Position numbers and translations under genes: made by a program. Below are positions 23,573-29,387 of a stretch of DNA of 64,000 nucleotides, piece after piece; positions within the stretch are counted from its first letter, which is position 1; each line of letters starts with the position of its first letter. Origin of the DNA: Flavobacteriaceae bacterium CG2_30_34_30 (GTDB taxonomy: Bacteria; Bacteroidota; Bacteroidia; Flavobacteriales; Flavobacteriaceae); NCBI GenBank assembly GCA_001873105.1, contig MNYN01000067.1, positions 1-64,000 of the forward strand, read 5' to 3'. The notes under the pieces are model-generated. The model was not told the origin of the DNA. It ran no database searches and worked only from the letters and a program-made list of their open reading frames with translations.

Positions 23573-23645
23573 TGGCTCATGGTGTAACTGGCAACACGTC
23601 TGGTTTTGGTCCAGAAGAGTCTAGGTTCGAGCCCTAGTGAGCCAA
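23573..23645 (+). tRNA. tRNA-Gln (anticodon TTG)
   Basis: TGGCTCA/TGAGCCA acceptor stem; CTGGTTTTGGTCCAG anticodon arm with TTG; CTAGGTTCGAGCCCTAG T-arm. Confidence 0.95.
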
Positions 23646-23650
23646 CTTTA

Positions 23651-23687
23651 ATAAACCGATCTGTAAATCACAGATCGGTTTTTTGTT
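23651..23687 (+). terminator. Intrinsic terminator after tRNA-Gln
   Basis: AAACCGATCTGTaaatCACAGATCGGTTTTTTG. Confidence 0.8.
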
Positions 23688-23844: not shown

Positions 23845-24693
23845 TTAAATTTTAAAAGTAATTACCGGCCTTTTTGAATGATTTACCAAATCTTCGCTTA
23901 TGCTACCATTAAAAAAGTGTGACAGACCTTTTCTTCCATGAGTAGCCATTCCAATAAGGTCGGCATCGATAAATTGTGCAAAGTTTAATATGCCTTTTTC
24001 TACAGAAGTATCGTTATAAATATTTAAGGAATAATTTTCTAATTCTATTCCTTTTATAAATTTATTCATAACACCATGAGCCTCAGCAGAAGTTAAAAAA
24101 TTGGAAGCCGTATTCACAAACAAAAGGTGAATTTTTGCGCCCATTTTGTTGGCAAAAATAATAGCTTCCTTAAAGGGAACTTTAGCTTCATTAGAGAAAT
24201 CGGTTGCAAAAACGAAATTTTTTACAACAAACTTTTTGTGTTCATCTTTAATCACTAGAACAGGAATGTTTGAAGACCGCACTACTTTTTCAGTATTACT
24301 TCCTATAAACATTTCTTTAAATCCACTAGCGCCGTGAGAGCCCATCACCACTAAATCTACTTTATGTTTGGCAGCAGCATCCATAATACCATCAAAAGCC
24401 TCCTGAAATAGTACGGTTTCATAAACAACAATTCCTTTTAAATAATCAGCACTCAAAACCTCTTCAAAACGTTTTCGAGCTAATTTCATGAAATAGAGAG
24501 ATTCTGGAAGGTCACCGCCTGAATTTGAAGGGTCAACCAAATTTAATGGTAATTCAAGCATATGCAATAAATAAATTTCACTTTTATGTTTTTTTGCAAG
24601 TTGAGCGGCTACTTTTAAGGCGTTTTCAGCTTGTAGCGAAAAATCAGTTGGAACAAGAATTTTTTTCATAGGGTTTATTTTGTTAAAGTCCAA
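23845..24693 (-). CDS. Universal stress protein, two tandem USP domains
   Basis: 282 aa; MKKILVPTDFSLQAENAL..., VVMGSHGASGFKEMFIGSNTEKVVRSSNIPVLVIK, second half MATHGRKGLSHFFNGS. Confidence 0.93.
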   Translation of the reverse strand: MDFNKINPMKKILVPTDFSLQAENALKVAAQLAKKHKSEIYLLHMLELPLNLVDPSNSGGDLPESLYFMKLARKRFEEVLSADYLKGIVVYETVLFQEAFDGIMDAAAKHKVDLVVMGSHGASGFKEMFIGSNTEKVVRSSNIPVLVIKDEHKKFVVKNFVFATDFSNEAKVPFKEAIIFANKMGAKIHLLFVNTASNFLTSAEAHGVMNKFIKGIELENYSLNIYNDTSVEKGILNFAQFIDADLIGMATHGRKGLSHFFNGSISEDLVNHSKRPVITFKI

Positions 24694-24740
24694 AAATAAT
24701 AGTTAAATTACAAAAAAAGATCCATTTACATCCTTTTTTT

Positions 24741-24765
24741 TTGTGAGAAATAATTACTATATTTG
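24741..24765 (+). promoter_or_regulatory. Putative promoter of rimP-nusA-infB (TTG ... TATATTTG)
   Basis: TATATTTG at 24758-24765, TTG around 24741. Confidence 0.6.
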
Positions 24766-24789
24766 CCGCGTTGAAAAAGGATTATATGC

Positions 24790-24815
24790 GAGGGGACAAA
24801 AAGTCCCCTCTTTTT
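24790..24815 (+). terminator. Intrinsic terminator-like hairpin in the rimP-nusA-infB leader
   Basis: GAGGGGAC-AAAAA-GTCCCCTC followed by TTTTT; lies between the putative promoter and the rimP start. Confidence 0.8.
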
Positions 24816-24825
24816 ATACTTAAAA

Positions 24826-25293
24826 ATGCTGAAAGAAAAGATAACAGATCTGCTTGAGGAAGCCTTATCCAAAAATCAATCATTGTTTCTTATTAATTTT
24901 GATATGGATGAAAACAACAATGTAAAAATAATTTTGGATGGCGATACAGGCGTAACCCTTCATGACTGTATTGCAGTAAGCAGGGCAATTGAGCACAATA
25001 TAGATAGAGATGAATATGATTTTGCTCTAGAAGTGGCGTCAGCCGGAGCTACATCTCCATTAATTTTACCTAGACAATACTTAAAAAATATTGGAAGAAC
25101 ACTTGAAGTAAAGCAAAAAGAGGGCGGCACTTTAGAAGGTATTCTTAGTGAAGTTACAGAGGAAGAAATTAAAATTACCTGGGAGGCAAGAGAACCAAAA
25201 CCAGTAGGAAAAGGTAAAATTACAGTACAAAGAAACGCAGTAATCCCCTTTTCAAATATCAAACAATCAAAAGTAAAAATAATATTTAATTAA
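24826..25293 (+). CDS. rimP: Ribosome maturation factor RimP
   Basis: 155 aa; upstream of nusA; DEYDFALEVASAGATSPLILPRQYLKNIGR. Confidence 0.93.
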   Translation: MLKEKITDLLEEALSKNQSLFLINFDMDENNNVKIILDGDTGVTLHDCIAVSRAIEHNIDRDEYDFALEVASAGATSPLILPRQYLKNIGRTLEVKQKEGGTLEGILSEVTEEEIKITWEAREPKPVGKGKITVQRNAVIPFSNIKQSKVKIIFN

Positions 25294-25301
25294 TTACAGA
25301 T

Positions 25302-26540
25302 ATGGAAAATATCGCACTGATTGAGTCTTTTTCAGAATTTAAAGATGATAAATTTATTGATAGAGTTACCCTAATGGCTATTCTTGAAGATGTTTTTAGA
25401 AGTACTTTGAAAAAGAAATATGGGGAAGATGATAACTTTGATATCATTATTAATCCCGATAAAGGGGATTTAGAAATTTGGAGAAACCGAGTTGTTGTTG
25501 CCGATGGAGAAGTAGAAAACTCAAATCAAGAAATATCACTTACCGAAGCAAGAAAAATTGAACCCGATTTTGAAATAGGTGAAGATGTTTCTGAAGAAGT
25601 TAAACTTATTGATTTAGGCAGAAGATCTATTTTAGCACTTCGCCAAAACTTGATTTCTAAAATACACGAGCACGACAATACCAATATCTACAAACACTTT
25701 AAAGATCTTGAAGGTGAAATTTATTCTGCAGAGGTTCATCACATTCGTCATAGAGCCATCATTTTACTAGATGATGAAGGAAATGAAATAATCCTCCCAA
25801 AAGAAAAACAAATACCATCTGACTTTTTTAGAAAAGGAGATAATGTAAAAGGCATTATTGAAAGTGTGGAATTAAAAGGCAATAAGCCTACCATCCTAAT
25901 GTCTAGAACTAGTAATAAGTTTTTAGAAAAACTTTTTGAACAAGAAATTCCAGAAGTTTTTGACGGTTTAATTACTGTTAAAAATGTAGTAAGAATTCCA
26001 GGCGAAAAAGCAAAGGTAGCCGTAGATTCCTATGATGATAGAATAGATCCTGTAGGAGCCTGTGTGGGAATGAAAGGTTCTAGAATACACGGAATTGTAA
26101 GAGAACTGGGAAATGAAAATATAGATGTAATAAACTACACAAACAATACCAATTTATACATTTCAAGAGCGCTAAGCCCAGCAAAAATAACTTCCATAAC
26201 TATTAATGAAGAAACAAAACATGCCGAAGTAACCTTGAAACTGGAAGAAGTTTCGAAAGCTATTGGGCGCGGTGGCCATAATATTCGACTTGCCGGGCAA
26301 CTTACAGGTTATGAAATTGATGTTATTAGAGAAGGTGTAGAACAGGAAGAAGATGTGGAGTTAAGTGAATTTTCAGATGTAATTGAAGGATGGGTAATTG
26401 AAGAATTTGCCAAAATAGGTTTAGATACTGCAAAAAGAATTTTAGAGCACAATATAGACGATTTGGTTAAACGAACCGATCTAGAAGAAGAAACAATAAG
26501 AGATGTAATAAACATTTTAAAAGAAGAATTTGAAGAATAG
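25302..26540 (+). CDS. nusA: Transcription termination/antitermination protein NusA
   Basis: 412 aa; DRIDPVGACVGMKGSRIHGIVRELGNENIDVI; KH domain IGRGGHNIRLA. Confidence 0.97.
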   Translation: MENIALIESFSEFKDDKFIDRVTLMAILEDVFRSTLKKKYGEDDNFDIIINPDKGDLEIWRNRVVVADGEVENSNQEISLTEARKIEPDFEIGEDVSEEVKLIDLGRRSILALRQNLISKIHEHDNTNIYKHFKDLEGEIYSAEVHHIRHRAIILLDDEGNEIILPKEKQIPSDFFRKGDNVKGIIESVELKGNKPTILMSRTSNKFLEKLFEQEIPEVFDGLITVKNVVRIPGEKAKVAVDSYDDRIDPVGACVGMKGSRIHGIVRELGNENIDVINYTNNTNLYISRALSPAKITSITINEETKHAEVTLKLEEVSKAIGRGGHNIRLAGQLTGYEIDVIREGVEQEEDVELSEFSDVIEGWVIEEFAKIGLDTAKRILEHNIDDLVKRTDLEEETIRDVINILKEEFEE

Positions 26541-26588
26541 TAATGATTCTAATTTCTTTATCTTTTAAAAAAAACAGTGAAGCACTTT

Positions 26589-29387
26589 ATGGCTGAAGCA
26601 AATACAATGAGATTAAACAAGGTGTTACGCGAATTTAATATTTCGTTAGACCGTGTCGTGGATTTTTTAAAAACCAAAGGTCACGAAATTGATGCGCGCC
26701 CTACCACAAAAATTTCCAATGAAGTTTATCAGATTTTATTTGATGAATTTCAAACCGATAAAACAAAGAAAGTAGCTTCCAAAGAAGTTGGCGAAGAAAA
26801 GCGAAAAGAAAAAGAAGAGCTTAGAGTTGCCCGTGAAAAAGAAATTGAAGAAAAGCAAAAAGTTGTACAGGCTCGAGAAAGGGAAGTTATAAAAGCAAAA
26901 TCTAAAGTTGAAGCTCCTAAAACTGTTGGGAAAATTGATTTACACCCTAAAAAAAGTATTTCTGTAAAAGAGGAAGAAAAATCTCCCAAACCAGAAATGC
27001 CAAAATCAATGGCGGAAAAAAAACCTAAAGAGTTTAAAGAAGTTAAAGAAATTAGTAAAGAAGAAAATATAGTTGTAGAATCAAAAAAGGAAACAATTCC
27101 AGAGCCTCTTACTGAAAACTCAAAAGTAAAAGAGGAAGCTCCTAAAAAAGTGGAAAGCAAAATCTCTGAAAAGGAAGAAGTGGTGAATGACACACCACAA
27201 CATCTTGAAACACAATACAAAAAATTAGGGGGCCCAAACTTTACAGGAAAAACCATTGACCTTGACCAATTTAAAAAAGCCAAGAAAAAACCAATAGAAA
27301 AACCAAAACCTAAATCGGTTTCTGACACTAGTAAAGACAACAAAGGCAAACGGAGAAGAATAAGCAAAGAAGTACCCTCTAGAGGAGTTGCATCCCCACA
27401 AAATGGAGGAAGTAATATTGCCGCAAGAGGCAAAACAACGGCTAACAAAAGAGGTAGAAGCATAACTCATAAAGAAGAGCCAACAGAAGAGGATGTTCAA
27501 AAACAAATAAAAGAAACTTTAGAAAAATTACAAGGCAAATCTTCTAAAGGTAAAGCTGCAAAATACAGAAGAGACAAAAGAGATACCCATCGACAAAAAT
27601 CGGAAAGCGATATAGCACAACAAGAAGCGCAAAGTAAAACCATTCAGGTAACTGAATTTGTTACAGTTAGTGAAATGGCAACCCTCATGGATGTGCCAGT
27701 TATTAAAGTTATTTCAGCCTGTATGTCTTTAGGAATGATGGTAACTATGAATCAACGTTTAGACGCAGAAACACTTACTATTGTTGCAGATGAGTTTGGT
27801 TTTGAATTAAAATTTGTGTCCGGAGACTCAGAGGATACAACAGTTATTGAAAAAGATGCTCCCGAAGACCTGTTGCCAAGAGCTCCAATTGTTACCGTAA
27901 TGGGTCACGTTGATCACGGAAAAACTTCCCTTTTAGATTATATCAGAAAAGAAAATGTAATTGCAGGCGAATCAGGAGGAATTACCCAACATATTGGTGC
28001 ATATAGTGTTCAACTTGAAAATGGTCAAAAAATAACCTTTTTAGATACACCCGGTCATGAAGCGTTTACAGCAATGCGTGCAAGAGGGGCAAAAGTAACC
28101 GACCTTGCTATTATAGTAGTAGCAGCTGATGATGATGTAATGCCACAAACAAAAGAAGCAATATCTCATGCCCAAGCCGCAGGAGTGCCTATTGTTTTTG
28201 CCATAAATAAAATTGACAGACCCGAGGCAAACCCAGAAAAAATAAAAGAAAAACTTGCGGGTATGAACCTTTTAGTAGAAGATTGGGGAGGAAAAATACA
28301 ATCACACGATATTTCTGCTAAAACTGGACAAGGAGTAAATGAACTTTTAGAAAAAGTGTTGCTTGAAGCAGAACTATTAGAATTAACTGCAAATCCAAAT
28401 AAACCTGCTGTTGGAACCGTTGTAGAAGCTTTTCTAGACAAAGGGCGCGGGTATGTTTCTACAATTTTAGTACAAGGAGGAACCTTAAAAGTTGGCGATT
28501 TTGTTCTCGCAGGTCAGCATAGCGGAAAAGTAAGAGCTATGCAGGATGAAAGAGGTAAAATTGTAAAATTAGCTAGTCCTTCCACTCCTGTTTCTATTTT
28601 AGGATTAGACGGAGCACCACAGGCGGGCGATAAATTTGCTGTATTTGAAGACGAAAGAGAGGCAAAAGCTATAGCCACAAAACGCACACAACTACAACGC
28701 GAACAATCAGTTAGAACGCAAAGGCATATTACCCTAGATGAAATAGGAAGACGTATAGCTCTAGGAGATTTCCAAGAATTAAATATTATTCTTAAAGCCG
28801 ATGTTGATGGTTCAGTAGAAGCAATTTCTGATTCCTTCCAAAAACTTTCCACTCCCGAAATACAAATAAATATTATTCACAAGGCTGTAGGGCCTATTAC
28901 AGAAAGTGACGTATTATTAGCATCAGCCTCTGACGCTATTATTATCGGATTCAATGTCCGTCCTATGGGTAATGCCAGACAAATTGCAGATAAAGAAGAG
29001 ATAGATATTCGATTATATTCCATTATATACGATGCTATTAATGATTTAAAAGATGCAATGGAAGGCATGCTTTCACCAGAAATGAAAGAAGAAATAACCG
29101 GTACGGCAGAAGTTAGAGAAACATTCAAAATATCCAAAATTGGTGTCATCGCTGGATGTATGGTAACCAATGGTAAAATTATTAAAAATGCAGGAATACG
29201 TTTGATTCGTGAAGGTGTTGTCATCCATACCGGAACGCTATCTTCCTTGAAACGATTTAAAGATGATGTAAAAGAAGTTTCCAAAGGGTATGATTGTGGA
29301 ATTCAAGTAAACAACTACAATGATTTAGTAGAAGGCGATATTATTGAAGGTTTTCAAGAAGTGGAAGTAAAGAAAAAGTTGAAATAG
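26589..29387 (+). CDS. infB: Translation initiation factor IF-2
   Basis: [50 protein letters not shown]. The track starts at GTG 26577; ATG 26589 ([19 protein letters not shown]) is more plausible. Confidence 0.97.

Follow-up and report, generated by a model that had tools for sequence, protein, structure and literature searches.

Organization of the rimP-nusA-infB locus

The window (the whole stretch of DNA analyzed, 64,000 nucleotides) carries rimP, nusA and infB on the + strand (Table 1). The Pfam domains of these genes correspond to RimP, NusA and IF2, in agreement with the preliminary description, which had read them as one operon. According to Pfam, the upstream neighbor is a divergent gene encoding a universal stress protein (Usp), and the nearest upstream gene of the + strand encodes a tRNA-Gln followed by its own terminator. 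Thus, it was correctly noted that no nearby upstream gene on the + strand needs termination by the structure described below. Among relatives too, the gene upstream of the rimP leader is usually divergent. The tRNA-Gln and its terminator (23573-23681) are found at the corresponding site in the genus and in locus L008. A match to a group II intron domain (RF02001, 81 bits) was detected on the - strand at positions 1-126, where it is cut by the window edge.

The layout of the leader is a putative promoter TATATTTG, about 25 nt, a hairpin, an interrupted U-tract and then the first gene of the nusA operon. Both the promoter sequence and the 8-bp hairpin with its U-tract were found exactly at the positions first given for them. 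The stem GAGGGGAC/GTCCCCTC is a perfect 8 bp closed by the loop AAAAA and, together with TTTTT (24811-24815, the first letters of the U-tract TTTTTATA), it spans positions 24790-24815. The stem ends 15 nt and the TTTTT 10 nt before the rimP ATG at 24826; this last distance had been put at 11 nt, a trivial difference. The hairpin folded alone has a dG of approximately -14.8 kcal/mol, and folding of the 93-nt leader gave a z of -3.4, with only 1 of 200 shuffles folding as stably.

The sequence TATATTTG fits TAnnTTTG, the consensus of Bacteroidota promoters (PMC7366714). By itself, TAnnTTTG occurs in the window at chance level (102 found, 105 expected); the weight given to the promoter element comes from its conservation in place, the key letters reaching about 2.0 bits across 61 genera. 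Near the -33 site, a TTG or TTTG was present in only 32 of 61 relatives, and the possible TTG of the window is a weak candidate that we do not retain as a firm feature.

Table 1. Features of the rimP leader and of the genes around it (positions in the window).
Feature	Position	Strand	Basis
tRNA-Gln, nearest upstream + strand gene	23573-23646	+	
Terminator of tRNA-Gln	23653-23681		
Possible TTG of a -33 element (weak)	24741-24743	+	32/61 relatives
Putative promoter TATATTTG, -7 element of the Bacteroidota primary sigma factor (TAnnTTTG)	24758-24765	+	sequence, conservation
Putative start-site region and short unstructured 5' leader, sequence unconserved	24766-24789	+	conservation, folding
Hairpin 5' arm GAGGGGAC	24790-24797	+	conservation in 61 genera; covariation in the class
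Hairpin loop AAAAA	24798-24802	+	sequence and length (3-7 nt) differ among relatives
Hairpin 3' arm GTCCCCTC	24803-24810	+	conservation in 61 genera
U-tract TTTTTATA with conserved distal interruptions	24811-24818	+	47/58 family members
rimP, first gene of the operon	24826-25293	+	PF02576, PF17384
nusA, proposed feedback regulator	25302-26540	+	PF08529, PF13184
infB (IF2)	26577-29387	+	PF11987, PF00009, others

Conservation of the leader and its restriction to rimP

RimP was found in 102 of 120 relatives, and most of the corresponding leaders were read. Conservation within the family was measured on 61 genomes, one per genus, covering most of the Flavobacteriaceae. The stem retains about 1.85 of 2 bits per position (1.90 in the 5' arm, 1.80 in the 3' arm), while the first four T of the tail and the promoter letters T, A, T, T, T and G each reach 1.9-2.0 bits. 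The 20 nt preceding the hairpin hold just 0.38 bits per position and the first 30 nt of rimP 0.91 bits; the element is thus conserved more strongly than the start of the gene downstream. The conservation of the T-tract equals that of the stem, with the tail TTTTTATA present in 47 of 58 family members, an A at position 6 in 49 and an A at position 8 in 50. We considered whether the higher conservation of the 5' arm points to recognition of this arm, and dropped the idea since G-U wobble alone predicts such a bias.

The expectation that the hairpin would be conserved upstream of rimP in Flavobacteriaceae was therefore borne out, and the conservation extends to the whole class Bacteroidia. Our class survey included 178 rimP leaders from 61 families. 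A hairpin and T-tract lie at most 95 nt after a TAnnTTTG in 165 of these leaders (55 families), compared with 1-2% of dinucleotide-shuffled leaders, and GAGGGGAC..GTCCCCT is present in 92 of those leaders from 26 families, sequence counts being inflated by relatedness. Named carriers include Flavobacterium johnsoniae, Capnocytophaga, Pedobacter, Mucilaginibacter, Hymenobacter, Algoriphagus and Bacteroidales; the leader of F. johnsoniae (L224) reads TATATTTG..GAGGGGACTAAGTGTCCCCTCTTTTTATA. The structure is far beyond chance, and it is conservation that decides this point, as one terminator-like hairpin of 8 bp within 64 kb would not settle it.

Some deep families exchange the stem and keep its place and the T-tract (AAGGCTT/AAGCCTT in family f5, TTTGGGGAGC/GCTCCCCAA in family f9). 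Beyond the class (phylum loci L341-L366), many rimP leaders likewise carry a hairpin that resembles a terminator but is built on another stem, such as TCGCCC/GGGCGA in f91 or GAAAGTGGGG/CCCCACTTTT in f92. A reader of the stem letters, if there is one, would thus not be universal.

The motif appears restricted to rimP and unused at other terminators. Of 298 genomes of the order, 85 contain the pattern GAGGGGAC-N2..9-GTCCCCTC, in one copy each and never two, and 1 contains the reversed control pattern. In all 30 loci fetched from this search, RimP lies 13-50 nt downstream of the motif. When public genomes were scanned, the exact motif was retrieved in at least 119 contigs and, among the matches listed, 112 contigs carry RimP directly downstream. 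Three other loci (L169, L215, L220) end just past the rimP start; rimP was checked there by eye and these loci were counted as positive, so that the exact motif precedes rimP in 115 of the 115 Bacteroidota contigs among the matches listed. In the exact matches from other phyla among the matches listed (L167, L211, L231, L249), no RimP was found alongside; lacking an adjacent rimP, these were taken as chance and not as genuine leaders outside Bacteroidota.

As a control, the terminator of the tRNA-Gln, 1.1 kb upstream, was examined in five congeneric genomes. The stem of this terminator varies among them (AAACCGATCTG, AAACCGATTAG, AAGCCGGTCTG, GTCAACTC, AACCGATTGG), and the rimP stem is identical in the same five. 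Naville and Gautheret (PMC2965389) also found no other terminator with a comparably conserved stem.

Evidence for a probable attenuator and the alternatives

Variable loops and covarying stems indicate that the element probably acts as an RNA hairpin rather than as a DNA operator. Among leaders with the exact stem, the loop length ranges from 3 to 7 nt, and G-U wobbles are retained; several genera have GAGGGGAC/GTCCTCTT, for instance. When 95 leaders were aligned, 94.4% of the cells were paired, changes on both sides occurred in 58 cells against 13.2 in shuffles, and the covariation score was 0.339 against 0.182 after shuffling and at most 0.181 for slid partners; this alignment holds only leaders selected for having the hairpin, and kinship inflates the counts. 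No antiterminator is visible, as the leader deprived of its 3' arm does not fold (dG 0). Upstream of the stem lie 20 nt that are unfolded and little conserved, so that neither a riboswitch-like sensor nor an antiterminator could be accommodated there. Searches of Rfam on the leader (24600-25000, E up to 10) and on the whole window returned no relevant family for the leader. A riboswitch or two-state attenuator was therefore rejected, with no conserved upstream sensor, alternative fold or Rfam match. With sensor and antiterminator excluded, what remains is a terminator that would be tuned by a protein bound to the polymerase. The comparison of sequences supports the promoter, the hairpin, the U-tract, their position, the class-wide conservation, the covariation and the lack of an alternative fold as parts of this reading.

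We consider it probable that the element attenuates transcription in the rimP-nusA-infB leader and is subject to feedback control by NusA. As the promoter consensus suggests (PMC7366714), the transcript should start about 5-8 nt past TATATTTG (approximately 24770-24773), and the first RNA structure able to form would be the GAGGGGAC/GTCCCCTC hairpin. After transcribing about 45 nt, RNA polymerase would arrive at the U-tract TTTTTATA, which is short and interrupted and where a fraction of the polymerases would terminate and free a leader RNA of 45-50 nt, the others continuing into rimP, nusA and infB. NusA, the product of the second gene, would boost termination at this weak U-tract, so that a high level of NusA would turn its own operon down and a low level would turn it up. 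For this lineage, we infer the start site, the termination and the control by NusA. Feedback by NusA is the leading model on account of the precedents in B. subtilis, S. agalactiae and E. coli and of the conserved interruptions of the U-tract, since such distal interruptions have been described for NusA-dependent terminators in B. subtilis (PMC8060035). The layout of the leader matches those known or proposed as controlled by NusA in these three species (PMC12288461, PMC4448216, PMC2965389).

The simplest NusA model leaves the near-invariance of the stem unexplained, because generic NusA-stimulated termination needs no fixed stem sequence. Either four G and four C in the stem simply suit these polymerases best when termination has to be tuned, or the letters are read by something. 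Tentatively, we suggest that the class-wide stem GAGGGGAC/GTCCCCTC could be a specific recognition site whose letters, and not just whose stability, are read by a protein, candidates being a domain of the Bacteroidota NusA, RimP or another factor; this joint proposal is rather unlikely. If it were true, the element would be a sequence-specific, protein-gated terminator, with a mechanism unlike ordinary NusA-stimulated termination. The question of a terminator stem conserved letter by letter was raised in 2010, and it is sharpened here, as the loops are free and the stem and the interruptions of the U-tract are nearly fixed.

A related and somewhat less likely explanation keeps the attenuator and assigns the sensing to a factor other than NusA alone, in which case RimP, IF2, NusG or an RNA-binding protein of the lineage would recognize the stem. 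The 1.85 bits per position of the stem exceed what a terminator needs, and the tRNA-Gln terminator drifts within the genus. Naville and Gautheret inferred a protein that recognizes the motif, with NusA as first candidate and RimP as a possible one (PMC2965389). However, no experimental support was found for candidates other than NusA, and several families replace the stem in place (f5, f9), so its letters are not needed in every family. On balance we regard such a sensor as unlikely, and feedback by NusA as the preferred reading.

That the hairpin exerts no feedback, and is a plain terminator against upstream read-through or a 5' hairpin stabilizing the mRNA, appears improbable. Some incoming transcription is conceivable in loci L056, L063 and L170, which have a tRNA-like 3' end close upstream. 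However, the hairpin follows the conserved promoter of the operon itself, so that a plain terminator would block that operon, and the usual divergence of the upstream neighbor led us to reject a terminator of the upstream gene. A stabilizing hairpin would not require a U-tract, yet the tract is conserved.

Control of the translation of rimP, by ribosome access or by an upstream frame, would place the action of the hairpin after transcription, and we hold it to be very improbable. It is true that the stem ends 11-17 nt ahead of the rimP start codon in most of the Flavobacteriaceae, and that an ATG overlaps the first G of the stem in 29 of 57 genera of the family, against 6.9 expected by composition. 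However, the start codon of rimP lies outside the hairpin, neither the length nor the register of the upstream frames is conserved, the excess of ATG is not seen outside the family, and the conserved T-tract points toward termination. A leader peptide was discarded on the same grounds, its frame and length being unconserved and the enrichment of the ATG at the stem base being confined to the family. In the window, a frame of 23 codons (24786-24857) traverses the hairpin and extends past the rimP start in a different frame.

Finally, an operator in the DNA, to which a dimeric repressor of the rimP promoter would bind, is suggested by a near-perfect inverted repeat just past the promoter in a single copy per genome; it is the least credible explanation and was rejected on the variable arm spacing, as a dimer on DNA would need half-sites at a fixed distance and would have no use for wobbled arms such as GAGGGGAC/GTCCTCTT, and as the T-tract is as conserved as the stem.

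Relation to known rimP leaders

The idea of an attenuator is not new in itself, since the rimP-leader has been known since 2010, when it was published for Firmicutes and Gammaproteobacteria with a stem GGGc..gCCC (Naville and Gautheret, PMC2965389). The candidate attenuator of the window resembles the motif described in that study in being a short hairpin with a U-stretch in the 5' UTR of rimP-nusA-infB, in its G-rich 5' arm, C-rich 3' arm and unusual conservation of the stem, and in having no antiterminator or larger sensor and no occurrence elsewhere in the genome. It differs from that motif by the stem GAGGGGAC/GTCCCCTC, compared with GGGc/gCCC, and by its promoter of TAnnTTTG type. The window has GGGGAC/GTCCCC, and some members of the class have GGGGGC/GCCCCC or GGGGC/GCCCC; most stems of the class are close to GGGc..gCCC but with an extra A-U pair. 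The element very probably belongs with the general rimP-leader, the literal GGGc..gCCC being matched only approximately.

The Rfam model RF01770 (rimP, 102 positions) shares with our element the position ahead of rimP. It gave only scattered sub-threshold matches, with none above the cut-off, in the 61 Bacteroidota genomes, no match to the leader of the window at E up to 10 (24600-25000), and a score above the cut-off in just 1 of 14 control genomes. Because RF01770 does not detect the element and its stem differs from the published GGGc..gCCC, we call it a putative lineage variant of the known rimP-leader kind. Bacteroidota are not named in the main text of PMC2965389, whose supplement may list them, and we found no earlier description of such a leader in this lineage.

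The nusA gene of B. subtilis is subject to autoregulation, in which NusA stimulates termination in the leader (Mondal et al. 2016, as reported in PMC12288461). The B. subtilis ylxS(rimP)-nusA operon has an intrinsic terminator in its 5' leader (as described in PMC12288461), as would be the case here. The leader of B. subtilis is about 180 nt long (PMC2965389), in contrast to 45-50 nt to the U-tract here, and dependence on NusA is reported there (PMC12288461), whereas we infer it here. A very short leader also exists in the unrelated lineage of S. agalactiae, where transcription of gbs0413-0418 from one start yields a long RNA and a short one that stops at an intrinsic terminator 31 nt further on (PMC4448216). 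Studies of feedback by NusA have dealt with E. coli and B. subtilis, and a leader terminator nearly unchanged across a class would show that this control is very widespread. The element is a single defined one of 50 nt, also found in F. johnsoniae (L224), a species used in the laboratory.

Two terminators precede rimP in E. coli (PMC6511841), and the one nearer to rimP reads GGGCTTTAGGCCC-T7. The tRNA-like 3' ends seen by eye close upstream of the rimP leader in L056, L063 and L170 recall metY, which precedes rimP in E. coli.
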